A stretch of 64,000 bases of DNA from Luteolibacter sp. Y139 (GTDB taxonomy: Bacteria > Verrucomicrobiota > Verrucomicrobiia > Verrucomicrobiales > Akkermansiaceae): the NCBI RefSeq assembly GCF_038066715.1, contig NZ_JBBUKT010000001.1, positions 620,001-684,000 on the forward strand. Direction: 5' to 3'. Shown here piece by piece: positions 10,060 to 64,000 of this stretch. The position numbers and the translations under genes are program-made. The notes below the pieces were generated by a model. The model was not told the DNA's origin and made no database searches. It saw nothing but the letters and a program-made list of their open reading frames with translations. Each line of letters opens with the position of its first letter. The stretch's first letter is position 1.

Positions 10060-10088
10060 GGGGATGTTGGAAAAGGAAAAGGCCCGCG

Positions 10089-10373: not shown

Positions 10374-10429
10374 CGGAGCGGGCGATTCCTTTACTTCCTC
10401 CGGGAACAAACGGCAGGTGGAACTTTTGA

Positions 10430-10777: not shown

Positions 10778-10803
10778 GGGCCGGGCGCGGCGCGCAGTGA
10801 AAA

Positions 10804-10986
10804 TCAAACCCCGTGCTGGGTGGTGTGACGCTCGTAGTGGATCTCGGCGCCCTTCGGGATGAGACGCTTGCGGCCCTTCTGGCGGCGGCGCTTGATGATG
10901 TCGCGGCCGGCCTTGGTCGCCATGCGAGCGCGGAAACCGTGCTGGCGCTTGCGGGTGCGCTTGGATGGCTGGAAGGTGCGTTTCAT
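10804..10986 (-). CDS. rpmH: Ribosomal protein L34 with a C-terminal extension
   Basis: [20 protein letters not shown] and the basic core [10 protein letters not shown] are diagnostic for bL34 of the large ribosomal subunit. The usual protein ends about ten residues after GRKRL or earlier, at 44-50 residues. Here [18 protein letters not shown] adds about 16 residues, giving 60. It is the first gene of the cluster and divergent from a GNAT gene. No dnaA is found beside it, unlike many bacteria. Confidence 0.97.
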
Positions 10987-11114
10987 GGCAGTCTCGGGAA
11001 AAAGGCGTTTCTGGTAACCGCACCGGGCGTCCGGCTCGGGCGGGCGCGCACTCTAGGAGTCGGACCCTGCTTGTCAATCCGCCAAATACCACCGACAGCG
11101 GAATTTTTTTCGTA

Positions 11115-11654
11115 ATGCCCGGGAAATCGCGTGCCGCTCCCCCACCACCGTGGCACGGTCCCGCCGTGAGCCAAGGATCTTCCTCCAGCGCCGTCGCCAA
11201 CCGGCCCAAGGTCGTGCCTGCGACGATCGAAGACCTTCAGGGACTTACCGATCTCGTGATGGAGCTGTTCGCCGAGTCCGACGAGTTCACCTCCAATCAC
11301 GATGTCCAGGAGCGCGGCCTAGCCCTGATCCTGGAGCAACCGAGCCGCGGCCGCATCTTCCTGGTGCGGAACGAAACCCGGATCATCGGCATGGTGAACC
11401 TTCTGTTCACCATTTCCACCGCCATGGGCGGATTCGTGATCCTCATGGAAGACGTCATCGTTCACCCGGCCCACCGCGGCCAGGGCTACGGCGGCATGCT
11501 GCTGGACCACGTCATCGAGTTCGCCAAGCAGAAGGACTTCAAGCGCATCACCCTGCTGACCGACAAGATCAGCGCCGAGTCGCAGAATTTCTTCCGCAAG
11601 AATGGCTTCGAGTATTCCAACATGATCCCCATGCGGCGGATCATCACCGGCTGA
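11115..11654 (+). CDS. GNAT family N-acetyltransferase
   Basis: The acetyl-CoA binding motif A is clear: LMEDVIVHPAHRGQGYGGMLLDHVIEFA, followed by KDFKRITLLTDKISAESQNFFRKNGFEY, which is motif B. The product is 179 residues from the ATG at 11115. The first ~17 residues are a Pro/Arg stretch unlike the family, so the GTG at 11166 (giving 162 residues, SQGSSSSAV) is a serious alternative. The substrate is not known. It overlaps nothing and is followed 14 bases later by a small membrane protein gene. Confidence 0.85.
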   Translation: MPGKSRAAPPPPWHGPAVSQGSSSSAVANRPKVVPATIEDLQGLTDLVMELFAESDEFTSNHDVQERGLALILEQPSRGRIFLVRNETRIIGMVNLLFTISTAMGGFVILMEDVIVHPAHRGQGYGGMLLDHVIEFAKQKDFKRITLLTDKISAESQNFFRKNGFEYSNMIPMRRIITG

Positions 11655-11668
11655 CAAGCCAAGGCGCC

Positions 11669-11938
11669 ATGAGCCACCATCTCGGAATCGTCCCTGCCGC
11701 GGATGGCTTCGCCATGGCGATGGTGGTCATCCTGGTCTTCAGCCTCGGCATCGTCGCCACTCTGATCGTCGGCATCTACCGCAGCGGCAAACGCCACGAA
11801 AACGAAGTCGAGAAGCTCCTCGAAGAACTCCGCCGCGACGAAGAAGAGGAAGAGCGCCAGCGCAAACACCCCGCCTCCCCCACCGGCACCCAAGACCGCG
11901 AGCCCTGGGAAAAGGAAGCCGACTGGTGGAAGCAGTAG
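11669..11938 (+). CDS. Small single-pass membrane protein with a charged coiled tail
   Basis: 89 residues. A membrane segment (MAMVVILVFSLGIVATLIVGIY) is followed by a strongly charged helix KLLEELRRDEEEEERQRK and a tryptophan-containing end (EADWWKQ). The layout suggests an N-out, C-in anchor with a cytoplasmic helical tail. No family recognised. It begins 14 bases after the GNAT stop and is probably co-transcribed with it. Confidence 0.65.
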   Translation: MSHHLGIVPAADGFAMAMVVILVFSLGIVATLIVGIYRSGKRHENEVEKLLEELRRDEEEEERQRKHPASPTGTQDREPWEKEADWWKQ

Positions 11939-11954
11939 GAGCGCAAAATAAGGA

Positions 11955-12036
11955 GCGGGGACACTCTTGTCCCCGCCGCCATTCTCCGGCCGGCACCAAC
12001 TTCTCTAGCCAGCACCATTCTCCAGCCGGCACTAAC
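11955..12036. repeat. Hairpin GCGGGGAC/GTCCCCGC followed by three short tandem units
   Basis: A perfect 8-bp inverted repeat (11955-11962 and 11969-11976) with loop ACTCTT is followed by three imperfect ~18-base direct units: TTCTCCGGCCGGCACCAAC, TTCTCTAGCCAGCACCA and TTCTCCAGCCGGCACTAAC. The hairpin could also end transcription of the GNAT operon, but it lacks a T-run. Confidence 0.65.
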
Positions 12037-12043
12037 TTCCCCA

Positions 12044-12140
12044 GCCCCAACGGGGCGAAAGCCCTAAGCCCAGGGCATGCGAAGCGCCGCCCTGGGTTTG
12101 AAGCCCACAGGCCAAGGCGGCCTGAAAGGTCGCGAGATGG
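12044..12140. repeat. Dispersed intergenic repeat, family A, copy 2
   Basis: Starts with the same palindrome GCCCCAACGGGGC as the copy at 1431, then CCCTAAGCCCAGGGCATGCG, CGCCCTGGGT and GGCGGCCTGAAAGGTCGCGAGA. It directly follows the tandem units, so three repeat types are stacked in a gap of 290 bases. Confidence 0.75.
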
Positions 12141-12228
12141 GCGTGGCGTGAAGAAGCAACGCAAGCCGGTCTCATTCCTCTGCTGAGTGGTGCGGAACGA
12201 CGGCTTCTGCAAGAAGCCCCGTCAGGCA

Positions 12229-12690
12229 TCAGTCCCGGAAATCAACGCTCATGAATGCCGTTCCGCTATCGGCGTCATACCAGCCGTCCATGGCGCTCCA
12301 GCCCGCGATGTCCGGGGAACCTTCCTTGTGGTAAGTCTGCTGGGAACGGGGAGGACGCACCCACCAGCTGGGGTCATTCGGGTTACCCTCCACTTCACAC
12401 CTGCCCCGGTCAATTTGGACGGTGGCGCTCTCAGAAGCATCCGGCTTCAAGGCGAGCTTCGCCGTTGCGTCCAGGAACACTTCCCGGGTACATCGAAACC
12501 TATAATATTCCCCGTAGGTATCTCCGATTTGAATGTCGGCAAACTCCCAGTCAGTGACGGACGCAGGCAGCGTAATCCCGGTTCGTGATTCGAATACCGA
12601 TCGAGCGGCACTCCCGGACCTTTTGCTCGAACTCGTGCAGGCGCTCAATGCCACAGCGGCTGCGACGGCGAACAGAGTCGGGAGCTTCAT
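12229..12690 (-). CDS. Lipoprotein of unknown function
   Basis: 153 residues from the ATG giving MKLPTLFAVAAAVALSAC, a standard lipoprotein signal with cysteine at residue 18 followed by TSSSKRSGS. The mature part has a GDTYGEYYRFRCTREVF segment and ends in AGWSAMDGWYDADSGTAFM. No known domain is recognised. The frame extends upstream to 12837 but the signal peptide fixes the start. Isolated gene, with trpB upstream on the same strand about 230 bases away. Confidence 0.7.
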   Translation of the reverse strand: MKLPTLFAVAAAVALSACTSSSKRSGSAARSVFESRTGITLPASVTDWEFADIQIGDTYGEYYRFRCTREVFLDATAKLALKPDASESATVQIDRGRCEVEGNPNDPSWWVRPPRSQQTYHKEGSPDIAGWSAMDGWYDADSGTAFMSVDFRD

Positions 12691-50592: not shown

Positions 50593-52109
50593 CAGAACTG
50601 GAAGTAAATGAACTCGCTCAGCTGATCGAAGTCCCGGCCCACGGCATAGAGGAGCGCCAGCGTGAAAAGCAGCCACAGCCAGGTCGGCCGCCACTGCCAC
50701 CAGCGGTGCGGGCCGGTGCGGGTTCCTGTGGCTTCCTCGATATCGAGTGCAGGCCGGTAGCGCCGCAAGAACTGCTGCGTATTCGGCAACACCCACACGA
50801 CCAGCAATCCGGTGATGACCGGCACCATCGCGCGCTTTCCTTTCACCACCACCACCGCATCCGGCGGCCAACCGTCGAAGCCATTGAACCCGAACATCGA
50901 GGCGAGCATGCGGGTGGCACTCTCGAAGTGATGGGCGCGGAAGAAGACCCACCCGATGATCACCGCGATGAAGGTCAGGCCGATCGCCAGCGGCTTCGGC
51001 AAAGCGCGCCACGCCATCTTCTTCCGGAAACCGAACCACGCGTGATTGATGCAGAGGTAGAGGCCGTGCAGCGCGCCCCACACGATGAAGGTCCAGCCAG
51101 CTCCGTGCCACAGGCCGCCTAACAGCATCGTGACGAATAGGTTCACATACCGGCGCGCCGGCCCCTTGCGATTGCCGCCGAGCGGGATGTAGAGGTAGTC
51201 GCGCAGGAACCGGGACAGCGTCATGTGCCAGCGCCGCCAGAAATCGACCACCGAGACCGCCTTGTAGGGCGAGTGGAAATTCAGCGGGAAGCGGATGCCG
51301 AACATCCGTGCCGCCCCAAGCGCCATGTCAGAGTAACCGGAGAAGTCGAAGTAAAGCTGCAGCGTGTAGGTCACTGCACCCGCCCAGGCCTCGAGCATCG
51401 TCGGCGCACGACCATGCGCCGCGGCGAGGTCGAAGATCGGGGTGGAGGTGCGGGCCGCGTAGTCGGCGAGCACCACCTTTTTGAAGAGACCCAGCGCCAG
51501 CATGGTCGCACCGACAGCGAAGTCCTGCGACCTCAGCCCGCGGTCCTTGTTCCGCTCGAACTGCGGCATCATCTCCCGATGATGGATCAGCGGGCCCGCG
51601 ATCAGGTGCGGAAAGAAGGTGACGAACAGCAGGTAGTCCGTGAAGTGATACTCCTCCGTCTCCCCGCGATAAGCATCCACGAGGTAGGCGATCTGCAGGA
51701 AGGTGAAGAAGGAGATCGCCAGCGGAAGCACGATCACCGGAATCGCAGCAGGCCAACCGGTCGTGTCGTGAAGGATGCCACCGAGGAAGCCGGCATACTT
51801 ATAGTAGCCGAGCAGCGCCAGGTTCGCCGTCACGCCACCGGTCAGCAGCAGCTTGCCGGGACGGCTGAACTTCAGCGCCGACAATCTACGACCCAGGTAG
51901 TAGTTGAAGACACAGGAGCCAAGGATCAGCCCCAGGTATTTTGGCGACCACGGCTGGTCCGGATCCGGATTCCAGATCCCGTAGAAGAACAGCGAGGCGA
52001 GTACCAGCCACGCAAGCGAGAGACGAGCCGGAGCCTTCCTCAGCAGGTGGTAGCCAAGCAGCACCACCGGCAGGAAGATGAAGAGGAAGAAGTAGGAATT
52101 GAACAGCAT
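50592..52109 (-). CDS. MBOAT family O-acyltransferase, AlgI-like
   Basis: 505 residues, about 10-12 membrane segments. The MBOAT active site histidine is in MLLGGLWHGAGWTFIVWGALHG (near residue 334), preceded by YFDFSGYSDMALG and SVVDFWRRWHMTLSRFLRDYLYIPLGG, all standard for the AlgI branch. These proteins pass acetyl groups across the membrane to an exported partner that acetylates a polysaccharide. Its partner is the SGNH-like protein directly upstream; six bases separate the two genes. Acceptor polysaccharide unknown. Confidence 0.95.
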   Translation of the reverse strand: MLFNSYFFLFIFLPVVLLGYHLLRKAPARLSLAWLVLASLFFYGIWNPDPDQPWSPKYLGLILGSCVFNYYLGRRLSALKFSRPGKLLLTGGVTANLALLGYYKYAGFLGGILHDTTGWPAAIPVIVLPLAISFFTFLQIAYLVDAYRGETEEYHFTDYLLFVTFFPHLIAGPLIHHREMMPQFERNKDRGLRSQDFAVGATMLALGLFKKVVLADYAARTSTPIFDLAAAHGRAPTMLEAWAGAVTYTLQLYFDFSGYSDMALGAARMFGIRFPLNFHSPYKAVSVVDFWRRWHMTLSRFLRDYLYIPLGGNRKGPARRYVNLFVTMLLGGLWHGAGWTFIVWGALHGLYLCINHAWFGFRKKMAWRALPKPLAIGLTFIAVIIGWVFFRAHHFESATRMLASMFGFNGFDGWPPDAVVVVKGKRAMVPVITGLLVVWVLPNTQQFLRRYRPALDIEEATGTRTGPHRWWQWRPTWLWLLFTLALLYAVGRDFDQLSEFIYFQF

Positions 52110-52115
52110 GTCACT

Positions 52116-53330
52116 TCACTTCTTCTTCGCCTCGCCTTCCGCGATCCATTGTTCCTTCAGCGCCATATCCCCCACCCCGGGCCCGGTGAGGTAGGCCTTG
52201 TAACCCTCGCGGACGTGATTGAACCACGGCTCGATGGTCTCCGCCGTCAGCTTCGTCCCGTAGTTCTCCGCCCCGGGGATCGGCACCGGCCAGCCCATGA
52301 TGCGGCTCTGGATCACATTGCCGACTTCGATCGAGTAGTGCCCGAGGTCACCCCAATGCGGCATCACCGCCTCGCGGTCTTGCGGCAGCGGGTCGCAATT
52401 CAACGGATGATAGTCGGCAAAGTCCCACACCTCCACCGGCGGGCCGTCGAAGGTCTCACGATTCACCTTTTGTGCGAGCTCCAGCACCGCACGGCGCTCG
52501 TGCTCGAAGACGACCGGCGGATTCGCGGCATCGGCAGCGCGGGAGTTCATAAGCGCGTGGGTCGGGTGGATGAAGGTGATCAGGTGCACTCCCCTTTGCC
52601 GGGCATCCCGCATCATGTCCTCCAGCACGCGGGCCTTGGCGGGATTCACTGCGGGCTTGGACGTATCGGGCACATCGAACTCGGCCTCGCCCTGAATGCG
52701 ATCCTTGATGAAATCCAACTGGCTGCGCTTGCCCTTCTTCTTGGGGTGCGCGCGCAGGCCCTTCGGCGAGTACTGCGTTTGCTCGTGTTTCGAGGCACGC
52801 TTGAGCGTCTCCATGGATGCCTCGAACGTGGAAACGCCGATCATATAGCGGATCTCCCGATTGAAACGGTCTTCATTTCCCGCCAGAGGCGAAGAGTGAT
52901 AGTCACCCATCGGCCGGGTATCGGTCGTCGAGCTCAGGTCACCCGGGTCCACGCCGAAAAGGATCAGCCCCACCTTCCGCTCCTCCATTAGGTAGCGGGC
53001 CAGCGCGGTGCTTTCATAAATGAAGCCGCCGCTGCAGCCGAGGTTCACCACGGACTGGCCTTGCCAGCCGGGGAATTCGGGATCGAGGCCATTGGCCACT
53101 CGCGAGGAGCCTACCAGACCCACGTCGATCTTCGGGTTCGCACGGACGATGCCCGCCTTGCCCGTGCGGATCTGCGAGGAAATGTCGCGATACGGGTCGA
53201 GCTTCTGCGACGACCACGGCGTCGGTGTCACCCGCCACGGGTTCACCGTCGTGTTCACCGCGAAGGACACCAGCGAGGCCACCGCAATCACGGCGACCAG
53301 ACCGATCGAATATCCCCTAAAGGCGCGCAC
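52116..53330 (-). CDS. SGNH-like exported partner of the MBOAT acyltransferase
   Basis: 404 residues. One N-terminal membrane segment (GLVAVIAVASLVSFAVNTTV), then an exported domain with IDVGLVGSSRVANGLDP (serine nucleophile candidate near residues 75-76) and a later PLNCDPLPQDREAVMPHWGDLGHYS containing a plausible Asp/His pair. The order fits AlgX/AlgJ-type acetyltransferases in MBOAT pairs. First gene of the operon. It could be an acetyl acceptor or catalytic partner; the exact chemistry is inferred from the pair. Confidence 0.8.
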   Translation of the reverse strand: MRAFRGYSIGLVAVIAVASLVSFAVNTTVNPWRVTPTPWSSQKLDPYRDISSQIRTGKAGIVRANPKIDVGLVGSSRVANGLDPEFPGWQGQSVVNLGCSGGFIYESTALARYLMEERKVGLILFGVDPGDLSSTTDTRPMGDYHSSPLAGNEDRFNREIRYMIGVSTFEASMETLKRASKHEQTQYSPKGLRAHPKKKGKRSQLDFIKDRIQGEAEFDVPDTSKPAVNPAKARVLEDMMRDARQRGVHLITFIHPTHALMNSRAADAANPPVVFEHERRAVLELAQKVNRETFDGPPVEVWDFADYHPLNCDPLPQDREAVMPHWGDLGHYSIEVGNVIQSRIMGWPVPIPGAENYGTKLTAETIEPWFNHVREGYKAYLTGPGVGDMALKEQWIAEGEAKKK

Positions 53331-53390
53331 GGACGGGGTATGAAGGACCGCCCGCCGGGGGTCAAACGTCTTCCGCGTCGGGATTCCCCC

Positions 53391-54464
53391 TCACGCGAAA
53401 TGCCGCTCCAGCAGCCGGGCGACCTGGGTGAAATCCGCCGAATCCACCGGCGGCACCGGCGCATTCGCTGTCAGCAGCGGCACCCGCTCCCGGGTGTGGT
53501 CGGTCCCGTGATGATAGGGATCATTCCCGTGGTCCGCCGTAATCAGCAGGAAATCCTCCCCCACCTTCGGCAAGAACCCGCCCAACCACGCATCGAACTC
53601 GCGCAGGCACTGCGCATAGCCTGCCGGATCGCGGCGGTGGCCGAAGAGCATGTCGAAGTCGACCAGATTCGCGAAGATCAGGTGCGGCTGCGGCCGCTGC
53701 TCCGCCCACAGCTTCTCGATCACCGCCATGCCATCGGCATTCGATTTCGTCGGATGGCTTTCGGAAATTCCCGCCCCGGCGAAAATGTCGGAGATCTTCC
53801 CCACCCCGATCGTCTCCACGCCCACCGCCTGCAAGCGATTGAGTACCGTCTCGGGTGGCATCAGCGAGTAGTCGTGGCGGTTCGAGGTCCGCTTGAAGCT
53901 CGCCGCGCTGTCGCCGAGGAATGGCCGCGCGATCACCCGGCCGATCCGAATGCCGCGCTTGTCTAACACCTCACGGGCTTGGTGGCATAGCGCCCACAGC
54001 TTCTCCAAACCATAGCGCTCTTCATGCGCGGCGAGCTGCAGTACCGAGTCGGCACTCGTATAAACGATCGGATGGCCGGTGCGGAGATGTTCTTCGCCGA
54101 GCTCGGTGAGGATCTCGGTTCCTGAGGCCGCCTTGTTTCCGAGGAACGGACCACCAATCTCATCTAACAAATCCTGCGGGAACGACTCGAAGGTGTCGAA
54201 CGCCTGCTCCAGCACGCAGCCCGCCAGCTCCCAATGGCCGGTGGTTGTATCCTTGCCGGCCGAAGCCTCGCTCATGATCGCGGATGCCGCATTCGGATAT
54301 GAGGCGGAACTTCCCAAACCAAGCTTGGCAAGATTCGGCAACTCCAGCCCCTCTCGCTCGAACAAATGCCCCAGCGTGTCCGCGCCCTCGTCACCATAGT
54401 CCGCCGCATCCTTCGCCGCGCCGCAGCCCACGGAATCCAACACAATCACGAGCGCCCGCTTCAC
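53391..54464 (-). CDS. deoB: Phosphopentomutase
   Basis: Interconverts ribose-1-phosphate and ribose-5-phosphate, in nucleoside salvage. 357 residues. The start is GTG, giving VKRALVIVLDSVGCG, the normal N-terminus; the frame runs further to an ATG at 54497. Metal-binding and core motifs: DSVGCG, DADTLGH-type ADTLGHL, NLVDFDMLFGHRRD, ADHGNDP and GTDHTRE. Slightly shorter than the E. coli enzyme. It follows the Wzz-like gene by 37 bases on the same strand and may be read from the same message. Confidence 0.95.
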   Translation of the reverse strand: MKRALVIVLDSVGCGAAKDAADYGDEGADTLGHLFEREGLELPNLAKLGLGSSASYPNAASAIMSEASAGKDTTTGHWELAGCVLEQAFDTFESFPQDLLDEIGGPFLGNKAASGTEILTELGEEHLRTGHPIVYTSADSVLQLAAHEERYGLEKLWALCHQAREVLDKRGIRIGRVIARPFLGDSAASFKRTSNRHDYSLMPPETVLNRLQAVGVETIGVGKISDIFAGAGISESHPTKSNADGMAVIEKLWAEQRPQPHLIFANLVDFDMLFGHRRDPAGYAQCLREFDAWLGGFLPKVGEDFLLITADHGNDPYHHGTDHTRERVPLLTANAPVPPVDSADFTQVARLLERHFA

Positions 54465-54501
54465 GGAAAGTGATGCTTGCCCAAAGCAGCCTCGCACCCA
54501 A

Positions 54502-55332
54502 TCAAAAACCGAGGCCAGCCACCGGCACGACGCGGCGGGGCTTCAGGAATTCCAGCAGGTAGGCAAGAAACACCGCACCAAACAGCCCCACACCAAATCC
54601 TCCCGCCCCGTGAAGCCCGAGCATCCCCAACCGCCCGAAGGGCACCGCCGGCGTTGCGGGATGAGGAGGAGAAATCAGGGCCACCCTCTCGAAAAAGGAG
54701 GTCGAGCACATTTGCCCCATTTCCAGCCGCTTCTGCGTCTCCCGCGCATGGTCCAATTCCGACAACACGGCTTTGACGCCCCGCTTTCCATCCGGGGAAC
54801 CGGGCTCAAGGGAAGCCACCTCGGCTTCCAAGCGACTCACCTTTCCTTTGGCCGAATCGAGCTCCACTTGATCGGACACGCGTTGCTCTTCCACTGCGAT
54901 GGCCCAGGCAGCGTCGTAAATCGCCATCCATGTTTCGCGGGCGGCCTTTTCCCCGCGCCCTGTCACCGTCATCTTGAGAGTGGGCATTCCCATCGTCGCA
55001 TCGATCTCCACCTTCTGCTGCCGACGGATGACATCGACGTCGGCGCTCACTCCCCACGTCTCCGAACGCTCCACACGGTTCGCCGCCCTTTTCAGCACCC
55101 TCTCTGAAGTCATGAATTCCATCCCCTCGCGGGCGACTTCCTCATTGCCGGCTGATGAGGTCTTTCCGGAAAAGTAGGCAATCGATCCGGGCACCGAAGT
55201 CTCCCTGAACTGCTGAAACAAAAACCACGCCACTCCCATCACCACCCCGAGCAAAGGCAGCATCCAGAACAGACGCCGCCAGCGCATGGCGACAAATCCC
55301 GGATTCCAGCGGCGGGTAGCAAGCCCTTCCAT
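54502..55332 (-). CDS. Wzz-like two-pass membrane protein
   Basis: 276 residues. Two membrane segments flank a helical periplasmic domain: FWMLPLLGVVMGVAWFLFQQF near the N-terminus, and HGAGGFGVGLFGAVFLAYLLEF near the C-terminus. Between them are a coiled-coil region (ELDSAKGKVSRLEAEVASLE) and a Ser/Gly-rich start (SIAYFSGKTSSAGNEEVA). This matches polysaccharide co-polymerase/chain-length determinants in layout, but no tyrosine-kinase or PxxP signature is seen, so the role is not certain. ATG at 55332 was chosen; GAGG lies 9 bases upstream. It follows the 320-residue gene after 11 bases. Confidence 0.65.
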   Translation of the reverse strand: MEGLATRRWNPGFVAMRWRRLFWMLPLLGVVMGVAWFLFQQFRETSVPGSIAYFSGKTSSAGNEEVAREGMEFMTSERVLKRAANRVERSETWGVSADVDVIRRQQKVEIDATMGMPTLKMTVTGRGEKAARETWMAIYDAAWAIAVEEQRVSDQVELDSAKGKVSRLEAEVASLEPGSPDGKRGVKAVLSELDHARETQKRLEMGQMCSTSFFERVALISPPHPATPAVPFGRLGMLGLHGAGGFGVGLFGAVFLAYLLEFLKPRRVVPVAGLGF

Positions 55333-55343
55333 TTCCACTATCC

Positions 55344-56306
55344 TCAATGCCTCTCGCCTTCGCGCAAGCTCGCAAGGAGTCCGGTGCGGCGGGAAGAATC
55401 CGGCAGGCCCTCTGCCCACTCGATGCCCGCCGCTTTCCCGGCGGGATCGAGCGATTGGATCACCTCCGCTGCCACCTTGACGAATTGTTCCTCAGGCAAC
55501 CCGGCATCGAGCAAAATTTGCCGTGCCACCGCCGGATCACGGTGACGTGCCAAGGTGCCGCCGATGATGTGCACGCGATTGCCCTCCGGGAGTTTCGAGT
55601 CGAGCGAAACCCGATGGAGAACATTGGAGAGATCCCCGGGCGTCTGCGTTGCGGCAAATTCCCAGAGCGCAGACAGGCACAGTTTCGCATCCGCACCTAA
55701 AAGCTCGTCGATCCCCGCTGGATCGGCGGCGACTTTCGCGGCCAACAACAGCGCCGGGAAATCAAGCTCCCCGCGATTCTTGAATTTCGGCGGGCTGATT
55801 CCCTCCAGCCAAGCCGCCGCTGCTGCGGCATCCGCGCTCAGCCACGTTCGCATGACCGTCCGGAATGGACTCCCATCGTTACCGTCCACGACCAGTTCGG
55901 CCGCCAGCTTGGGATCGCTCTCCGCCACACGGGGCCCGATGGATACCAGAATGTCCTTCTTCACTTCCTCCGGCAACTCGCTGTCGCGCAACATCAACGC
56001 CCACTGTTTCAATTCGTGCCCCGATGCCGCCGCGATCTGATCGCGGAGAAGCATCCGCTCCTTCTCGGTCAAAGGGACGCCCTCCTTCAGCGACTTCGCG
56101 ATCAAGGCCACAAAGCCCGCACCATCCAGCACCGGCCTGGCCTCGCGCTGCGAGGACTTTGTCGCGCCGTTCTCCACGGCCGCGCCGGTCTTGCCGGAAA
56201 CCGCGCGCAATTCGGCTTCACGCTGCTTCAGGCGGGAGAGTTCCTGTCCCTGCCACCATCCCGTGGTGATGGCGACAAGCACGATGATGAGCAAGGTGGC
56301 CTTCAT
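55344..56306 (-). CDS. Membrane-anchored helical-repeat protein, partner of the sigma fusion
   Basis: 320 residues. An N-terminal anchor (ATLLIIVLVAITTGWWQGQ) is followed by a coiled-coil (LSRLKQREAELR), then helical repeats with the pattern D-P-x-x-A-x-x-W, for example SADAAAAAAWLEGIS and ESDPKLAAELVVDG. The same pattern occurs in the C-terminal half of the sigma fusion upstream and in the 524-residue protein. Its start lies four bases after the sigma gene's stop. It probably acts at the outer face of the inner membrane with the sigma fusion; inference. Confidence 0.75.
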   Translation of the reverse strand: MKATLLIIVLVAITTGWWQGQELSRLKQREAELRAVSGKTGAAVENGATKSSQREARPVLDGAGFVALIAKSLKEGVPLTEKERMLLRDQIAAASGHELKQWALMLRDSELPEEVKKDILVSIGPRVAESDPKLAAELVVDGNDGSPFRTVMRTWLSADAAAAAAWLEGISPPKFKNRGELDFPALLLAAKVAADPAGIDELLGADAKLCLSALWEFAATQTPGDLSNVLHRVSLDSKLPEGNRVHIIGGTLARHRDPAVARQILLDAGLPEEQFVKVAAEVIQSLDPAGKAAGIEWAEGLPDSSRRTGLLASLREGERH

Positions 56307-56310
56307 GACT

Positions 56311-58284
56311 TCAAGGTTTGCGAGGGATGAGACGGTCGATTTCCTCCTGAGCCATGCCGCCCTTGCGAGCGAGCTCCCGGGCGTCTTCACGCTCTCTTGA
56401 GGAAAGCAGCATCATCTGCAGTGCCGAATCACGCAATGAGCGGTCCGTGATCAGCTGGCTGCGCGGGATCGCATCGAGGATCCGGTCCTCACTGAACATG
56501 CAGCGGCTGATGTAGGTCGCCAGCATCCGCTCATCGGGATGGCGTTCCCATTCGGCATCCAGCACCTCCTTCACCCGGTTGGGCACGGCATAGCCAACCC
56601 CATCCAGGAAAACGCCGGCCGCCTCCGAAGGATCGAGACCTGCCGCCGTTTCACGCACCCAATCGAGCTTCTTCGCGACCTGTTCCAGCGACATCTCTTG
56701 CGTGAATCTTCCCGCTGCCAGGGAGATCCATTGAGAAGCCTCGCTGTTGGACGGTTGCAGCTGGTCGATCCAACCACGGATTTCCCCGGTCGATCGCTCC
56801 CCGGCCGTGGAAAATATCTGATTGAGCGCCTGCCCGCGCTGCACCGGATCGCTCATCTCTCCCGCCAGTCCCACCATCACCTCGGGATGCTTCAAGCCCG
56901 CCCCTCCACCGATCACCGCCTGCCGCCGCTCATCACTCAGGCTCCGGAAAAAAGCAGCAGCATCCTCCGGACTCCTGAGATACAGCCCGTCAAAGGCGCG
57001 TGCGCCGACGACCGCCGCATCCGCGGACCGGGAAAGGCTGCTATTCTCTCGGTACCATGCGGCCGCTTCTTCGGGGTTCTGATCCGCCCAGCGATTCAGA
57101 TTGTCGCCAGCAAGATTCCAGATCGACCCGTCGCCCGGCTTCATGAACGGGGACAGGCGCAGGGCGAGGCCGACGACCCGCTCGGACGGCAAGCCGGACA
57201 CTTGGGCGCGGAGGCAAAATTGCCGGTAAAGGGCGTAGACGAGGGCATTGCGCTGCTCCGGACCAAGTTCGAGGGACGTGGATTCCACAAGCAGTCGCTC
57301 GAGCTCATCGGCGCTCATCGCTTCGACTTTCTTCTCGGTTGTGAATCGCTTCACCAGATCGCCTTCCTTCGCGGCCAGCAAGGCATCGGCCAAGACAAGG
57401 AGATTCACCGGCGCTGCACTCCGGTCCGATGCTGGCGTTTGCCGCGAAGATGACCCCGACGAAACGACGAGGTTACTGCTCTCCAACAAAGCGATTCGTT
57501 GCCGTGCATCGGAGATTGCCATCGCCTGCATGCCGAGCGGAGCAAGCGAGAGAAGCAAGACGGCCGCAATCACAACGGCGGGTTTGATTTTCATGAGATG
57601 GAGGGAGTGAAGGGTTAGCGTTTTCCAGGAAAGAGCGGCCACCGCCGCGGGAGTGGCGCCCAGTGATGCTGCCACCGCGGGAGGAGCGGCTTGCGTCAGC
57701 GAAGTGCCGAGCCCGCTGCCAAGAGCGGCGGAGCTCACGGCGATCCCGCGTTTTGTCAGGGAAAGCCGCAGCCGTTCGACCGCTCGCGATCCACGCTGAC
57801 GCCACGCCGCCGGCTCTCCGCCGAATTGACGCGCCATCTGCTCGAAGCTCAGGCCATCGAAGTATTTCAGGAAGATCACCTGCCGGTCCTTCTCCGGCAG
57901 ATCATCGAGTGCTTGATCAAGAAGCGGCGCGGCATCCTTCCATGCGGAGTCGCCATCATCATCGGGAAGCGGGAGATGTTTCATGCGCGCTTGGTGCCGG
58001 CTTTCGCGGCGCAGGAGTTTCGAGGCTTCGTAGCAAGCGGTGCGGTGAAGCCAGCCCGCGAGAGTCGGCAGATGGGTCAGCCGTGGCGCCTTGCGGGCGA
58101 GAATGAGCAGCGAGTTCTGCGCGGCTTCACCGGCCAAGTCATCGCGACCCGTCCTTCGCAACGCCGCGTGGTAGAGCAGCCCGCCATAACGCCGGGCGAG
58201 GACCGCGAAGGCTTCCTCGGAGCCTTCGGCGGACCACGCTTCCAGCAGGGAGGCATCGGGGCGGTCACTCATTTCAACCATCAT
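56311..58284 (-). CDS. ECF sigma factor fused to a membrane anchor and exported helical-repeat domain
   Basis: 657 residues. Region 2 lies at ~20-97 (AFAVLARRYGGLLYHAALRR, GWLHRTACYEASKLLRRESR) and region 4 at ~120-175 (LPEKDRQVIFLKYFDGLSFEQM, QRGSRAVERLRLSL). An Ala-rich linker and a membrane segment (KPAVVIAAVLLLSLAPLGMQAM, 234-256) follow, then coiled coil (ARQRIALLESSN) and ~400 residues of helical repeats (NPEEAAAWYREN, SPEDAAAFFRSL). So sigma and its likely regulatory sensor are one protein. It could start at the ATG at 58272 (MSDRPDA). Related fusions occur in Planctomycetes and Verrucomicrobiota. There is no separate anti-sigma gene beside it. Confidence 0.88.
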   Translation of the reverse strand: MMVEMSDRPDASLLEAWSAEGSEEAFAVLARRYGGLLYHAALRRTGRDDLAGEAAQNSLLILARKAPRLTHLPTLAGWLHRTACYEASKLLRRESRHQARMKHLPLPDDDGDSAWKDAAPLLDQALDDLPEKDRQVIFLKYFDGLSFEQMARQFGGEPAAWRQRGSRAVERLRLSLTKRGIAVSSAALGSGLGTSLTQAAPPAVAASLGATPAAVAALSWKTLTLHSLHLMKIKPAVVIAAVLLLSLAPLGMQAMAISDARQRIALLESSNLVVSSGSSSRQTPASDRSAAPVNLLVLADALLAAKEGDLVKRFTTEKKVEAMSADELERLLVESTSLELGPEQRNALVYALYRQFCLRAQVSGLPSERVVGLALRLSPFMKPGDGSIWNLAGDNLNRWADQNPEEAAAWYRENSSLSRSADAAVVGARAFDGLYLRSPEDAAAFFRSLSDERRQAVIGGGAGLKHPEVMVGLAGEMSDPVQRGQALNQIFSTAGERSTGEIRGWIDQLQPSNSEASQWISLAAGRFTQEMSLEQVAKKLDWVRETAAGLDPSEAAGVFLDGVGYAVPNRVKEVLDAEWERHPDERMLATYISRCMFSEDRILDAIPRSQLITDRSLRDSALQMMLLSSREREDARELARKGGMAQEEIDRLIPRKP

Positions 58285-58581
58285 CCCCCGCTCATCGGAA
58301 AAGTGTGACAGGAAAAATGCGGCTCATGCGAATGCCCTGAAGTTTCAAACGGGGGTGAGCTGTTAGATCCCATTTCCTGCCGAAACCCGCCCAAACGAAG
58401 CAGGGGAAGAGGACAGTCCTGCTTCGATATTCCCGGATTTTTTGAATCACGAATCGTCACTAAATTCGGCCGAAAATCTCAGCACATGAATCGGCCGTGG
58501 CATGTGGGGTGCTAAATCGGACAACGCACCCCCCGGCGTCCCACGGCCAGCGCCGGAGGGTCTCTCGAATGCGCTGATTTC
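58285..58581. promoter_or_regulatory. Divergent region between the sigma fusion and the amidase
   Basis: 297 bases, no coding frame. It contains a perfect 9-bp inverted repeat CGAAGCAGG (58396-58404) / CCTGCTTCG (58418-58426) with 13 bases between. It should contain both promoters and is where a self-regulated sigma site would be expected. I could not pick promoters with confidence. Confidence 0.4.
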
Positions 58582-60651
58582 ATGCATATGAAGACCCCAT
58601 CTACTCCACCACTCATCCTATCCATCTGTCTCGCAGGCATTGCATCCGGCACCGCTGGTACACCTGCCGAACCACCGGTCGCAGTCATCAAAACCTTCGA
58701 ACTCGAAACGGCCACCTTGGAAGACGTCCAAGAGGCCATGCGTCTTGGAGAGCTTACCAGCGTCGAGCTCACCCTGCTCTACATGAACCGCATCGCAGCC
58801 TACGATAAGACCACGGGCCCGATCGGTCTCAACACGGTACCCGTGCTGAATCCGAACGCGATCGCCGAGGCGGCCAAAGCGGACAAGCTTCGTCGTGAAG
58901 GCGTTGAACTCGGACCGCTTCAGGGAGTTCCTTTCACCGCGAAAGGCAACTACAGCTTCAAGGGGCTGGCGACCACCGATGGCCTCACCCTTTGGGCGGA
59001 TCTCATCGCGCCGTACACCAGCCACGTCATCGAAGCATTGCAGGAAAAGGGCGCCGTCTTCCTCGGTCACAACAACCTCGACACCTTCCAAGCTTCCACC
59101 AGTTCCACGACCTCTCAGACCTTCGGCCTAGCAAGAAACGCCTACAACCGTGACTTCGTCACCGGCGGATCGAGCGGTGGTTCCGGCTCTTCGGTGGGAG
59201 CCAATCTGACCTTTTTCGCACTGGGTGGTGAGACCGGTGGCTCGGTGCGCAGCCCCTCCGAACGCGCCGGCATCGTCGGCTACAAGACCAGCCAGTCATT
59301 GATCTCCGTCCGCGGTCTGGCACCGCTCGCCTGGGATCGTGATGTGGTGGGTCCCATGACCCGCTATGCCGTGGACAATGCGAAGGTGATGGAAGCCGCC
59401 TCGAAGCCCGATCCTGCCAATATCTGGTCCAGCGTCACGGTCGTCGATGGCAGGCCGCGTCCAACAGGCTTCGCAGACCAGGCTACCGCCTCCACTTTGG
59501 TCGGCAAGAAATTCGGCGTCCTCACCAACTCCGTCGGAACGGTGGACACCGGCATCCCCGGAGCGATCAAGACCGTCTTCGCCGAAGCAAAGGCCACACT
59601 CGAAGCGGCCGGCGCGACCGTGGTCGAAATCACTGCCCCGCCGGAACTGGACATCACCTTCACCGGTCGCCGTAGGACGCTTCCCGTCGATGTCGTGACG
59701 CCACCGACGCGCAAGCTCTACTCACCAGCCACGACTGATACCACCGGCAACATGGTCGCTGGATCTCGGGCCTATCCCTTCAAGACCTTTCTCGAGAGTA
59801 TGGTGACGCTGCCAGGCGATACGGCCGATCAGATCCATGACAAGGTCGTCGCCCGGATCAGCCCGGTGACTCAGTTGCCTCAGGTTTACCGCACCGCGAT
59901 CGCCGACAAGACCACCTTTGGTCCGGAGCACCCGGACGTAGCGGAGCACTTCCAGGCGACGAAATATGCGATCCTCGATTACGAACTCTTCCTTCAGGAG
60001 AACGGAGTGGATGCGATGATCTTCCCAACCGTCACCAACAAGACCTCGTCAGGCCTGACGCTGCCGCCTCTCACCCGCTCGCTGGTGAATTCATTCGCCC
60101 TGCCGGCGGTAACCGTGCCAATGGGATCGGTCGACATGGGCAGCGGATCGATCGAGCCGACGACGATGCAGTTTGTCGGACGTTTCCTGCAGGACGACAA
60201 GCTGCTCGCGCTCGCCGCTGCCTTCGAGCGCGCGAGCCACAAGCGGATGGTCTCGCCTCAGGTGCCACCGCTCGATGGCGAAAACTTCGAGATCACCATG
60301 GACGACTATGTCGATGCCAATGATCCCTACGCTCCGCCGCTCCTCGTGGTGTCCAAGCAGGGCGTGGCGAAGAAGACCGCCGGCGTGAAGCGGCTCGAAG
60401 TCGGCGGACAGATCAAGGCCAAGGCGGATGTTTCCTCCATCCGCGCATGGATCAATGGCCAGTCGGTGCCGGTGGCCATCCAAGGCAAGAAGTGGAAAGG
60501 CTCGGTCGCCTTCGAAGAGATCCAGCCCTATGTGATCCCCGGATCCAAAACGGTGGAACTCAGCATTCTGGCCGAAGACAGCGAGGGAAATACGAATGCC
60601 ACGGTGGTTCCCATTCGCGTTCCGAAGTCCCTCACCCTCGCTCCCAAATAA
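58582..60651 (+). CDS. Exported amidase-signature enzyme
   Basis: 689 residues. An N-terminal signal peptide (PLILSICLAGIASGTAG) precedes the amidase signature domain. The catalytic triad is visible: Lys121 in PFTAKGNY, cis-Ser197 in FVTGGSSGGSGSS, and nucleophile Ser221 in LGGETGGSVRSPSERAGI. A C-terminal beta module of about 90 residues (VKRLEVGGQIKAKADVSS...) is added. Substrate unknown; relatives hydrolyse amides, and the export signal suggests a peptide, cell-wall or polyamide substrate. Divergent from the sigma fusion. The next gene is 35 bases behind and encodes repeats of the same kind. The alternative start is two codons later (MKTPST). Confidence 0.9.
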   Translation: MHMKTPSTPPLILSICLAGIASGTAGTPAEPPVAVIKTFELETATLEDVQEAMRLGELTSVELTLLYMNRIAAYDKTTGPIGLNTVPVLNPNAIAEAAKADKLRREGVELGPLQGVPFTAKGNYSFKGLATTDGLTLWADLIAPYTSHVIEALQEKGAVFLGHNNLDTFQASTSSTTSQTFGLARNAYNRDFVTGGSSGGSGSSVGANLTFFALGGETGGSVRSPSERAGIVGYKTSQSLISVRGLAPLAWDRDVVGPMTRYAVDNAKVMEAASKPDPANIWSSVTVVDGRPRPTGFADQATASTLVGKKFGVLTNSVGTVDTGIPGAIKTVFAEAKATLEAAGATVVEITAPPELDITFTGRRRTLPVDVVTPPTRKLYSPATTDTTGNMVAGSRAYPFKTFLESMVTLPGDTADQIHDKVVARISPVTQLPQVYRTAIADKTTFGPEHPDVAEHFQATKYAILDYELFLQENGVDAMIFPTVTNKTSSGLTLPPLTRSLVNSFALPAVTVPMGSVDMGSGSIEPTTMQFVGRFLQDDKLLALAAAFERASHKRMVSPQVPPLDGENFEITMDDYVDANDPYAPPLLVVSKQGVAKKTAGVKRLEVGGQIKAKADVSSIRAWINGQSVPVAIQGKKWKGSVAFEEIQPYVIPGSKTVELSILAEDSEGNTNATVVPIRVPKSLTLAPK

Positions 60652-60686
60652 CCTGACGGCTGTCCCTCGCTCCACACTTCACCGTC

Positions 60687-62261
60687 ATGATTGCTTTGTT
60701 GAAATCCACGAAGGTTCGCCTCGGCCTGGTTCTCCTGGCGTTGGCCGCAGTCACGTGGTGGATGGCCGTGCCGCGCAATCCGGAAGTCGTTTTCGGAAAG
60801 ACGGACGACCGGCCCGTGGTAAAAGCGGGCAAGTGGAGTGGCCATGACGGTGCCACCCGGTTCGCCGTGGCAGTGGCTGCGGCGAAGCCGGGCGAGTGGG
60901 CGCAGCTCGTGCGCGAGGCCCTGGACTCGGGCAACGAGGAGATCATCAAGGAGATGCTGCCAGATCTCCTGCGTCGCTGGATGCAGGCGGACATGCGTGG
61001 CTTCCTTGCCTTCATCAACGAGATGGAGGTGCTCGACGCGGACGGCCATCGATGGGCGATCCTGGGACCGATCCTGCTGGATGTGATTCCCGAGCTCGGT
61101 GAACGGGCGATTACGTCTCCCACGCTTTCAACCATCATTCATCGCACGATCCTCAATGTGGCCCGCCACGACCCGGACGCGGCATTGGATTGGGCGCAGC
61201 AACGGCTCGCAGGAATCGAGAAGGACCGTGCCATCGCCGGCATCGTGCCTCACCTCGTGGAGAAGGATGTGGATGCTGCCCAGCGCCTGACAGCGGGCAT
61301 CGAATCCACGCCATCCCGATTGGCTGCCCAACTGGCGATCGGCAACTATCTCGGAGCTCAGGACTCCGAGGCGGGTCTTGCATGGGCCCGCTCGTTGGGT
61401 CACGAGGGCGATCGCGCTTATGCGCTCGCTGCGGTGCTGTCCTCCATGGCGGAAGCGAATCCACAGGGTGCGGGCGAGATCTATCGCGAATCGGTTTCGA
61501 AAATGCAGCAGGCCTTCACCAGCAAGGTGCTGGCAGAGCGCAACGAGATGGGGCTGTCCACGGGTGGTGAATTCGAAGACATGACCCCGGCCCAAGCGGA
61601 GCGGGCCTTGCGAGCGCTTCCTGATCCAAATCTCCAGTACTTCGAACGCGCCGCGGTCGAAATTGGCACTGCCTTGGTGCGTGACGATCCGGCTGCTGCC
61701 TTGGAGTGGGCTCGCGCACTTTCATCCCGCGAAGGAGGAGAGGCAGCACTCGCCGGAGTTTACGGCTCTTGGGTGAGCATCGCTCCAAGTGACGCCTGGA
61801 ACTCACTTCGCGCGGAATCGAATCCCCCTAACAGGGTCGTTTCGGACTTCTTCGAATCATGGGCCACGAGCGATCCAGCAACGGCTTCGAGCGCGGTTGC
61901 CGAGCTCTCCGGAGCCGCCCGGCTTGCCGCGATCCCCGCTACCGTTGCTGGATGGGCTGAGGCAGGCGGAACGAGCGGCGACTTGGTTGGCTGGGTGAGA
62001 ACACTCGACGGGCAGCAAGAGCAGGATCAAGCGCGCGGCGCGATTGCTTCGACCGTGGCATTCAACGATCCAGTGGTGGCGTGGCAACAAGTCCAACAAA
62101 TGAAGGACCCGCAACGGCAGGCAGCAGCTTTCAACGAGGTCTTTCCAAGCTTGGCCGATGTCCAACCGCTGCTCGCGCAAAAGGCAGTCGCAACCCTGCC
62201 ACTCTCGCAAGTTCAGAGGGACTATTTCAACGACTTGCTGGAGCCCTTGCTGAATCCGTGA
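60687..62261 (+). CDS. Membrane-anchored helical-repeat protein
   Basis: 524 residues. An N-terminal anchor (GLVLLALAAVTWWMAVP) is followed by helical repeats of the pattern D-P-x-x-A-x-x-W-A: DPDAALDWAQQRL, DSEAGLAWARSLG, DPAAALEWARALS, DPVVAWQQVQQM. The repeat type is shared with the sigma fusion and the 320-residue protein nearby. Encoded just behind the exported amidase, probably in one unit. It probably acts as a periplasmic scaffold; inference. Confidence 0.75.
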   Translation: MIALLKSTKVRLGLVLLALAAVTWWMAVPRNPEVVFGKTDDRPVVKAGKWSGHDGATRFAVAVAAAKPGEWAQLVREALDSGNEEIIKEMLPDLLRRWMQADMRGFLAFINEMEVLDADGHRWAILGPILLDVIPELGERAITSPTLSTIIHRTILNVARHDPDAALDWAQQRLAGIEKDRAIAGIVPHLVEKDVDAAQRLTAGIESTPSRLAAQLAIGNYLGAQDSEAGLAWARSLGHEGDRAYALAAVLSSMAEANPQGAGEIYRESVSKMQQAFTSKVLAERNEMGLSTGGEFEDMTPAQAERALRALPDPNLQYFERAAVEIGTALVRDDPAAALEWARALSSREGGEAALAGVYGSWVSIAPSDAWNSLRAESNPPNRVVSDFFESWATSDPATASSAVAELSGAARLAAIPATVAGWAEAGGTSGDLVGWVRTLDGQQEQDQARGAIASTVAFNDPVVAWQQVQQMKDPQRQAAAFNEVFPSLADVQPLLAQKAVATLPLSQVQRDYFNDLLEPLLNP

Positions 62262-62297
62262 TTTGGAATCAGGTGATTTTGGAAGTTCCCTGAAGTT

Positions 62298-62642
62298 CTA
62301 GTCCCAACCCAGGAGGAACCTCATCCAGCAGATTCCGGAGGCCACAGCAAAAATCCAAGTCCACTTCCGGACGCGGATGAAGAACAGCGACCCGTCCTGA
62401 TCGAGCGCGAACTCCTCCCCCGTCTGCTTGTCGATCACCATTCTCTTGGGCTTCTTGTCGAGATACCTCGCGAAAAGAAAATTCCCGACTGCGCCGAGCA
62501 GGAAACTACACGCAAACATCATGTCACGGTCTTGCTCTGGCGGCTTGAGCCCGCTCGCAAATTCATAAACTCCCTGCGAAACGCCCATACTCAGAAGGAG
62601 TATTATCAATGTCAGGATTCCCTTGCCGGACCAGAAGATCAT
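62298..62642 (-). CDS. Small membrane protein of unknown function
   Basis: 114 residues. Three membrane segments: GILTLIILLLSMGVSQGVYEF, FACSFLLGAVGNFLFARYL, and WTWIFAVASGICWMRFLLG, with a charged loop KKPKRMVIDKQTGEEFALDQDGS between the second and third that reads like a cytosolic hairpin. No family was recognised. Convergent with the 524-residue gene, with 36 bases between. Confidence 0.65.
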   Translation of the reverse strand: MIFWSGKGILTLIILLLSMGVSQGVYEFASGLKPPEQDRDMMFACSFLLGAVGNFLFARYLDKKPKRMVIDKQTGEEFALDQDGSLFFIRVRKWTWIFAVASGICWMRFLLGWD

Positions 62643-62770
62643 TTTTGTAGTATCTTAAAGCTGTGCCAGCCACGGCTGGGCCGTGACTACTTCCACATTC
62701 AAGCAGGTCCGATCCTCGCCGCAAGAATACAAGAAAGGCCTTCAAAAATCTGATCGAGAGATCCTGCCTT

Positions 62771-64000
62771 TCACTCTTGGACCTGTGACGAGACCGCGAG
62801 TTTCAAGTCTGCCACGAACTGTCGGAACTCAGCCTCCTTCCTCAGTTCGTCGACCCGCAGCAAGTAGGAAGGGTGAACGGTCAGCACCACCCGGCTCGCG
62901 ATCTGCGGTGCGGCAACAAGACCGCGGTGCTTGGTCACTTGGACGTCGGGCCCCAGCAATGACCGCGCGGCCGTGCCACCTAACAGAATCACGATTTCTG
63001 GCGCAACCTTCGAAAGCTCAGCCAGCAACCACGGCTTGCATGCTTCGATTTCCCCAGCTCCGGGCTTCTGATGCAGGCGAAGCTTCCCTCGCGGCGTCCA
63101 CTTGAAATGCTTCACCGCGTTCGTGACATAGCAGGTGGAGCGATCAAGACCCGCCTCCACCAAGGCGCGATCCAAGAGCTGGCCCGCAGGACCAACGAAA
63201 GGCCGGCCTTCCAAGTCCTCGCGATCGCCGGGCTGTTCGCCTACGATCATGATGTGCGCATTCTCCGGCCCCTCTCCCGGCACAGCGGCGGTTGCGTGTT
63301 CCCATAGCGGACACTGTCGGCAAGCCTGCGTCATCCGCGCGATGTCATGGAGGCTTGTCGAGGCTGCCGGATCCGCGACAGGAAAGGAGGACAGATCCTG
63401 AAGCTTGCCGAGGTAGGCATTGGCGGGCGCCCGCTTTACCGGACGCAGAGGCTCCTCGATCATACCGTGCGTGCGTGCGGTGCTTTCGCGCGAGAGCTCG
63501 TCGATGAGATCGGCCTCCGGCAGATTCTTCCAATAGCGTCGCGGCATCTCCGACTGCATCGCCTTCATCTTCAGCCGAGCGGGATTGAAGATGCTGCGAT
63601 AGTAGGTGCGCCAGATGCCTTCCATGACATCCGGCTGGTCACAGGGATCGCGCGGCACTCCGGGGCTCATCTTGAATTCCCCAGCGATCCAGTGCGCACA
63701 TCCCTTCGGCGTGAAGATCGACCAATCCATGTTCGCGAAGCGCTTGCGGAAAAATGGCGCCGCTGCCTCGACAATGAAGTGATCCGGCTCGAACCACGCC
63801 ACGAATCTCTCTCGTCCGTCGTCCGCCTCACCGGCTTTCCGGAAGCGGACGAACGCATGCATCTTGTGAATCTCGCGGCGGACATTCTTGGCCAGACGAT
63901 GCGCCATCGCCACATCCGGATCGCTGGCGATTTCCAAGACATGCCGCTCGCCGCTTTTCACGATCCGCCACAGCAGGCGATAAAGCAGCTCCCAACGCCG
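62771..64000 (-). CDS. DUF4130-UdgX fusion, uracil-DNA glycosylase-like (5' partial)
   Basis: The frame is open to the last base; the first visible codons (RRWELLYRLLWRIVKSGERH) match a DUF4130 interior, so the gene starts outside the window. The visible part is 409 residues. DUF4130: DPDVAMAHRLAKNVRREIHKMHAFVRFRK and MDWSIFTPKGCAHWI. UdgX half: cluster cysteines in ACRQCPLWE, STCYVTN and EACKPWL; GEQPGDREDLEGRPFVGPAGQ; the UdgX-specific loop reads GKLRLH instead of the usual KRRIH but keeps the histidine. UdgX proteins bind uracil DNA covalently via this His. Fusions of the two are usually next to a radical SAM repair protein, likely just outside the window. Confidence 0.9.
   Translation of the reverse strand, partial: RRWELLYRLLWRIVKSGERHVLEIASDPDVAMAHRLAKNVRREIHKMHAFVRFRKAGEADDGRERFVAWFEPDHFIVEAAAPFFRKRFANMDWSIFTPKGCAHWIAGEFKMSPGVPRDPCDQPDVMEGIWRTYYRSIFNPARLKMKAMQSEMPRRYWKNLPEADLIDELSRESTARTHGMIEEPLRPVKRAPANAYLGKLQDLSSFPVADPAASTSLHDIARMTQACRQCPLWEHATAAVPGEGPENAHIMIVGEQPGDREDLEGRPFVGPAGQLLDRALVEAGLDRSTCYVTNAVKHFKWTPRGKLRLHQKPGAGEIEACKPWLLAELSKVAPEIVILLGGTAARSLLGPDVQVTKHRGLVAAPQIASRVVLTVHPSYLLRVDELRKEAEFRQFVADLKLAVSSQVQE

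Follow-up and report, generated by a model that had tools for sequence, protein, structure and literature searches.

A recurrent Verrucomicrobiota gene pair for a membrane-tethered ECF sigma factor and a solenoid partner, with a probable self-type promoter and a proposed internal start

In a window of 64,000 nucleotides from Luteolibacter sp. Y139 (contig NZ_JBBUKT010000001.1, positions 620,001 to 684,000; positions below are those of the window), a sigma factor of the extracytoplasmic function (ECF) type, a membrane helix and an alpha-solenoid are encoded as one protein, the fused sigma protein P0001, and the gene directly downstream encodes a partner, P0002, with a homologous solenoid. From a comparison of this genome (G000; 31 contigs, 7.1 Mb) with its relatives we consider it rather probable that the two genes are a recurrent cassette of Verrucomicrobiota, in which a tethered sigma factor that drives its own promoter is combined with an isoform from an internal start and with the solenoid partner, and in which the sigma factor is released by a change of the complex. 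The elements of the proposed cassette are:

56311..58272, minus strand: fused gene, ECF sigma factor, linker, membrane helix and solenoid (the earlier open reading frame starts at 58284 and has 657 residues)
57997..58200, minus strand: sigma region 2, residues 29-96 of the 657-residue frame (Pfam PF04542, E 6.8e-5)
57769..57921, minus strand: sigma region 4, residues 122-172 (Pfam PF08281, E 8.3e-11)
57520..57576, minus strand: membrane helix, about residues 237-255 (hydropathy; predicted helix 235-271, low confidence)
56314..57402, minus strand: alpha-solenoid, residues 295-657, extracytoplasmic by inferred topology (AlphaFold2 model m4edb873404a8)
57592..57594, minus strand: proposed internal start Met231, which would give a 427-residue membrane helix-solenoid protein without sigma regions (conserved Met, folding test with synonymous shuffles)
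58283..58317, minus strand: proposed bipartite ECF promoter, TTTTTCCTGTCACACTT (58317-58301) and, 13 bases after TGTCACA, CGGGGGAT (58290-58283), aligned in 7/7 orthologues
55344..56306, minus strand: partner P0002, 320 residues, N-terminal hydrophobic helix and homologous solenoid (hhalign, broad hidden Markov models)

The first-pass annotation had located the five open reading frames (ORFs) of this region correctly, and its description of a sigma factor, a membrane anchor and helical repeats in one protein is borne out by Pfam and TIGR02937, by hydropathy and by the AlphaFold2 model of residues 295-657. The Pfam match to region 2 is weak (23.0 bits, with a cut-off of 24), and TIGR02937 matches with 55.4 bits (cut-off 42.9, E 5.4e-15). 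A Pfam scan of P0001 at E up to 1 returned no more than three sigma models, none of them for sigma region 3, and a weak match to DUF3319; judged from its sequence, the protein has the architecture of an ECF sigma factor (sigma-70 family, group 4), with regions 2 and 4 and no region 3. With Foldseek, only SigE of M. tuberculosis (9m9e_F) matched at E up to 0.001, followed at weaker E values by AlgU and E. coli sigmaE. An Ala-rich linker joins the sigma regions to the single hydrophobic helix that hydropathy places near residue 237. The chain order, read from domain order and hydropathy, is sigma factor, membrane helix, outer domain, and from this topology we infer that the solenoids are extracytoplasmic. 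Residues 295-657 are helical in the AlphaFold2 model, most blocks having a predicted local distance difference test score of 84-95 and the lowest 66; the model of the whole protein scores 76.6 with a predicted template modelling score of 0.52, and the linker and membrane helix are poorly modelled. Translation most likely starts at the Met at 58272 and not at 58284, since this Met is invariant in 7/7 orthologues and a CGGRGG block described below overlaps or adjoins the upstream ATGATG. Among the five genes Pfam recognised no anti-sigma gene, as had been noted earlier for this tethered sigma factor, and no protease, kinase or receptor was found among them by the same scan.

The ATG of P0002 at 56306 lies four bases past the stop of the fused gene, the gap that the first-pass annotation had given. 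With narrow ortholog profiles, hhalign scored the solenoids of P0001 and P0002 at 97.7% (E 1.1e-11); the homology spans the length of P0002, and six column-shuffled controls gave 0.1% or less. No solved homologue of the partner profile was found by sequence at E up to 0.1, Foldseek with the partner gave no match at E up to 0.001, and PADLOC had no matches for P0001, P0002, one partner or P0005, a third solenoid protein of the region that is discussed below.

Orthologues of P0001 are present in six relatives (G008 68%, G011 61%, G009 51%, G003 45%, G015 44% and G036 37%), of which G015 belongs to the same genus group as this genome. A P0002-like gene directly follows the fused sigma gene in 7/7 orthologous loci, those of the six relatives and of this genome; the partner in G036 is weaker (blastp E 8e-5; E 5e-25 with the hidden Markov model (HMM) of the fused solenoid). 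P0002 was present in 8/57 genomes, all of the same genus, and one scan of named relatives led to two loci, in Haloferula sp. BvORR071 and in a metagenome-assembled genome of Verrucomicrobiales. Beyond the family and class, fused sigma factors matched at E 1e-20 in 11/115 genomes across the phylum, this genome included.

For counts across the wider group we used 65 sigma ORFs (nine from this genome and 56 from relatives), a set that is biased to P0001-like proteins because it was picked from high-scoring P0001 matches; two of the 65 are incomplete fusions (L043 and a fragment in L070). This genome contains at least nine fused sigma genes, nine of them clear, P0001 included. Seven of the nine have a downstream partner ORF, with a 4-base overlap in four of the seven (L013, L015, L016 and L018). 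Among the 55 assessable sigma ORFs of the relatives and this genome, a number without the short fragment and without nine ORFs whose retrieved DNA broke off too early, 40 are followed by a partner ORF, and 23 of these 40 show the 4-base overlap. The fused-protein solenoid HMM matches 32 of the 40 partners; an N-terminal hydrophobic stretch is seen in 34 and a lipobox-like motif in seven. Fused proteins whose C-terminus matches an HMM built from partners only have a partner in 31/35 cases, the others in 9/20 (p 0.001). At the shorter ECF loci of this genome, no solenoid gene was found in the 4-6 kb read (0/19), and a shorter ECF sigma factor with a separate solenoid gene, considered as the ancestral split form, was not seen in these 19 loci and was dropped.

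The same loci gave some further observations. The partners in L089, L099 and L102 begin with a lipobox-like motif and may therefore be lipoproteins there. L080, L095, L099 and L101 each contain two fused sigma genes no more than about 10 kb apart (as does L070, with the fragment), and in L080, L099 and L101 both are on one strand, which suggests local duplication. A second class of fused sigma factors has about 520-580 residues and nine members (L012, L014, L074, L082, L087, L088, L097, L098 and L103); their C-terminal part has no match to the solenoid profile and none is followed by a partner ORF. In all nine, TGTC precedes the ATG by about 40 bases and the membrane helix is preceded by a Met, whose position in L012 is shifted by two.

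The region upstream of the fused gene contains a conserved element. In all seven orthologues the aligned ATG is preceded, at a distance of 38-39 bases, by TTTTTCCTGTCACA or a variant, with CTGTCAC in 7/7, and CGGRGG follows 13 bases beyond this first block (spacing read by eye for the six relatives). In the larger set, TGTC stands 34-49 bases before the ATG in 48/64 fused sigma genes, one sigma ORF being excluded here for too short upstream DNA, and it is usually preceded by a T-tract and followed by [CA][GC]; the T-rich scoring form was found in 25/64 fused genes and in 1.2% of simple base shuffles. In this genome 9/9 fused genes carry the TGTC element, compared with 2/20 shorter ECF genes (p 5e-6), the latter being a subset that we chose from the 58 sigma matches of the genome. 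The second block stands about 19-27 bases beyond TGTC; it is less pronounced and varies between groups. Fourteen fused sigma factors of distant families have TGTC at this site in one case only, and several of them carry TTGTGCGG or TTGTTCGG there (read by eye). The strict motif TTTCCTGTCAC has 21 matches in six genomes: six at this operon, one per genome, one before another fused sigma gene (in G009), 12 inside predicted ORFs and two without a convincing gene start.

A TGTC element locked in position before the fused genes suggests an autoregulated ECF promoter, and the element is probably an ECF promoter that is followed by a very short leader and driven by the sigma factor itself. The accessible part of PMC3426412 gives TGTCACA as the -35 consensus of ECF41, identical to our first block, and states that ECF sigma factors in general regulate their own expression. 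The element might also be bound by another regulator or sigma factor that governs the whole fused class and not by each sigma factor itself. Such a common regulator would fit the similarity of the first block among many paralogues, in which the downstream block differs; it is nevertheless unlikely, since the group-specific downstream blocks fit separate sigma factors better and ECF sigma factors generally autoregulate (same part of PMC3426412). Searches of Rfam had no match in 52000-64000, and no sigma-70 type promoter or terminator was found in 58200-58700.

The second feature of the fused genes lies within the coding region. In an alignment of 64 ORFs (one of less than 450 residues was excluded), 59 have a residue at the column just before the membrane helix; this residue is Met in 47/59, and the adjacent columns vary. 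Many partners begin alike, with Met and Lys or Arg followed by a hydrophobic helix. The mRNA folds weakly at this Met, with a mean of -3.3 kcal/mol, versus -9.2 at other in-frame ATG codons and -4.9 at partner starts. Against synonymous-codon shuffles, the mean z was +0.78 at the Met and +0.97 three codons on (n=47; positive values mean weaker folding), and downstream the effect was gone by 15-18 codons. Positive values were obtained at 40/47 Met sites and in 26/30 clusters at 45% identity. A second set of 13 fused sigma factors from other families gave z +0.82, with 12 positive; one further protein had no Met-helix pair. In addition, Lys in the first five positions after the Met is encoded 38 times by AAA and 18 times by AAG, compared with 393 and 827 times over the whole genes (p 3e-8). 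Taken from sequence and predicted folding, an internal start that yields a sigma-less isoform with membrane helix and solenoid is a reading we slightly favour.

Alternatively, the conserved Met and the weak folding could serve the membrane insertion of the full-length protein, through targeting or the local speed of decoding, with a single product. The site does precede the membrane helix in the sequences printed. The folding controls speak against this explanation, which we regard as rather unlikely: 156 other internal membrane helices gave z -0.04 and -0.13, 31 non-sigma proteins with their first membrane helix beyond residue 100 gave -0.06, and 186 other in-frame Met codons gave 0.00. Nine fused sigma factors with a shifted Met reached +0.76 +- 0.33 and seven without a nearby Met -0.24 +- 0.40, both being small groups.

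The solenoid was also seen outside the fused sigma genes. L024:8750-12292 (G000:C4 341749-345291) includes a Ser/Thr kinase gene at 9863-12292 (Pkinase E 1.7e-51) whose product has hydrophobic helices and the same solenoid at residues 468-798; an ORF with a match to sigma region 2 (8750-9841) ends 21 bases before it. From this arrangement, the sensor module may have a further role with a sigma factor under kinase control. The kinase fusion has a Met-Lys before a hydrophobic helix, with z +0.77 there; PADLOC matched it to 34 families, and the 25 listed ones match the kinase part. L198:2803-5034 (G000:C9) encodes a 743-residue solenoid protein of the same family (HMM E 7.7e-58); the 6 kb read there contain no match to a sigma factor.

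From these elements a mechanism can be proposed. The fused sigma factor would drive its own promoter, and the second, internal start would supply the isoform composed of membrane helix and solenoid. The solenoids of both forms, long and short, and that of the partner would bind one another and/or an envelope ligand, and this complex would hold the sigma factor at the membrane. An envelope signal would change the complex, whereby the sigma factor would be freed or exposed, most likely by regulated proteolysis involving a site-2 protease (S2P); the operon would then be amplified, and the sigma-less solenoids would set the threshold and the shut-off. It is about evenly balanced, in our judgement, whether the fused sigma genes throughout Verrucomicrobiota have two starts and, with solenoid partner and self-type promoter, form a titratable, self-amplifying switch free of an anti-sigma factor, with the kinase fusion in L024 suggesting a sensor cassette shared by different outputs.

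Several observations weigh against this proposal. On the side of the partner, 8/40 partner ORFs have no solenoid-profile match, two of them in this genome (L016 and L017), and a seven-sequence profile of the P0001 solenoid showed no association with a partner (10/13 versus 23/35, p 0.73); a larger contrast of 39/43 versus 1/12 is partly circular, because its profile was trained on partner-bearing proteins. As for the promoter, no second target was established with the strict patterns, the matches being judged chance where examined; four matches lay outside the examined set, and reversed-pattern controls gave 5 and 1. Concerning the internal start, 12/59 fused sigma factors have no Met at the aligned column (nine aligned proteins have a Met within six residues), and z is negative at 7/47 Met sites. 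Two further points also favour a role in membrane insertion. Upstream of the Met the folding signal fades slowly (+0.22 at 15, +0.38 at 24 and +0.11 at 30 codons), and there is no Shine-Dalgarno signal at the Met231 site, the mean duplex energy being +0.15 versus -2.7 at other in-frame Met codons. The missing Shine-Dalgarno signal was judged uninformative because true starts in this genome differ little from random in this respect.

Release of the sigma factor by proteolysis is possible, because an S2P protease is encoded elsewhere in the genome (Pfam M50 E 2e-48) and because IutY provides a precedent. In IutY of Pseudomonas putida, the one experimentally characterised fused sigma factor that is activated by proteolysis, Prc and RseP release the sigma factor (accessible parts of PMC8999054 and PMC5411451). 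IutY (ECF243, a sigma/anti-sigma hybrid) resembles P0001 in that a cytoplasmic ECF sigma factor and a periplasmic domain are part of one membrane-spanning polypeptide. In contrast to IutY, P0001 has no FecR-type anti-sigma domain (Pfam, E up to 1) and no receptor among the five genes; it has an alpha-solenoid as its outer part, is followed by a homologous partner gene and has a proposed internal start. Instead of being released by proteolysis, the fused sigma factor could act while tethered or by changing its conformation, as has been suggested for extensions of the ECF41 and ECF42 type. No protease is encoded among the five genes, and TGTCACA is also the -35 consensus of ECF41 (PMC3426412), which would suit such a mode of action; we nonetheless find it doubtful, since a membrane tether is expected to hinder access to the promoter and since IutY is freed by proteases.

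P0001 shares single traits with other ECF groups, of which ECF48, ECF52 and ECF53 are, together with IutY, its closest precedents. Like ECF41 it has a C-terminal extension and, in its proposed promoter, the -35 sequence TGTCACA, but it has no SnoaL match in Pfam and is membrane-anchored; the ECF41 promoter reads TGTCACA-n16-CGTC, whereas the P0001 element has CGGGGGAT 13 bases after TGTCACA, a CGGRGGAT block and no CGTC. ECF42 proteins likewise have a C-terminal extension of helical repeats, but P0001 has no TPR match in Pfam and carries its repeats behind a membrane helix. The actinobacterial groups ECF48, ECF52 and ECF53 (e.g. SCO4117) resemble P0001 in having a membrane extension at the C-terminus, which can reach several hundred residues. 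These groups belong to another phylum; P0001 differs from them in having no zinc-finger anti-sigma domain (Pfam), in having a partner gene, and in having the solenoid where they have a carbohydrate-binding domain. C-terminal membrane parts are also carried by ECF01-Gob and related planctomycetal ECF sigma factors, which are tethered and come from a related phylum. For the kinase-solenoid fusion in L024 beside a separate ECF ORF, the kinase-controlled ECF sigma factors of the EcfP/PknT type, which are named in PMC8999054, are a pertinent comparison; unlike in these, the sigma factor of P0001 is itself fused to the solenoid and no kinase is encoded among the five genes. Our literature search turned up no paper about Verrucomicrobiota sigma factors that carry a solenoid, nor about internal initiation within fused ECF genes, with the main ECF classification papers lying outside its coverage.

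The remaining three genes of the region are:

58582..60651, plus strand: enzyme with amidase signature (Pfam) and, by eye, a signal-peptide-like N-terminus; outside the conserved unit
60687..62261, plus strand: third membrane-anchored solenoid protein, P0005, which travels with the amidase and not with the sigma pair (HMMs, gene order)
54502..55332, minus strand: two-helix membrane protein of 276 residues, family not recognised (hydropathy, Pfam/NCBIfam); accessory

The amidase assignment of the first-pass annotation was confirmed (Pfam E 2.8e-65). The annotation had also described three proteins with related repeats, and this stands with broad profiles, by which the repeats of P0001, P0002 and P0005 are one family: the fused-protein solenoid HMM matches P0005 with E 4.4e-22 and P0002 with E 5.2e-8, and the partner-protein HMM matches P0005 with E 1.8e-14. 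Narrow profiles link P0005 weakly, with 59% to P0002 and 4.8% (E 0.0025) to P0001 in hhalign. The motif D-P-x-x-A-x-x-W that had been ascribed to all three is not found in this literal form in P0001 or P0002 and occurs twice in P0005.

The region had been viewed as one self-contained system of 8 kb that involves all three solenoids, with the amidase possibly producing or removing the signal. Their homology by broad profiles and the position of the amidase and P0005 genes next to the sigma gene, divergent to it, both here and in G011, would agree with that. Gene order elsewhere does not support including the amidase. In our comparison of 12 stretches, in which relatives of the gene annotated as "Wzz-like" were also counted, the sigma-partner pair was kept in the orthologous loci, but neither the amidase nor P0005 was found in the stretches read at the sigma loci L062, L063, L064 and L065; in L062, L063 and L064 a different gene, which we take to be ClpB, is divergent to the sigma gene. 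In G006 the amidase and P0005 lie together without a sigma fusion in the 16 kb read, the amidase being incomplete (a 464-residue ORF, matched from residue 154, with one stop inside), and in G008 the sigma pair is intact, P0005 is present and the amidase is a C-terminal remnant of about 96 codons (L060:8663-8953). Because they are missing at four sigma loci and occur together without a sigma gene in G006, the amidase and P0005 are, on this comparison, a separate divergent transcription unit, and a single 8-kb system is very unlikely.

For the gene at 54502-55332 the label Wzz had to be given up: Pfam and NCBIfam had no match at E up to 1, and the only match to PDB sequences was unrelated and weak (E 0.03). 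G008 has a relative next to the pair (51%), and in G015 another sigma fusion has a weak one (25%, E 3.5e-9) upstream of it. Downstream of the operon, the gene at 53391-54497 presumably encodes a protein resembling phosphopentomutase; it may be co-transcribed, since a homologue follows the sigma-partner pair in 4/7 loci.

The promoter element and the proposed internal start go beyond what had been annotated for this region. If the proposal is true, the cassette couples envelope sensing to transcription without an anti-sigma factor, and a single gene would provide the switch as well as, via the internal start, the competitor of that switch. The promoter element gives direct access to a definition of the regulons.

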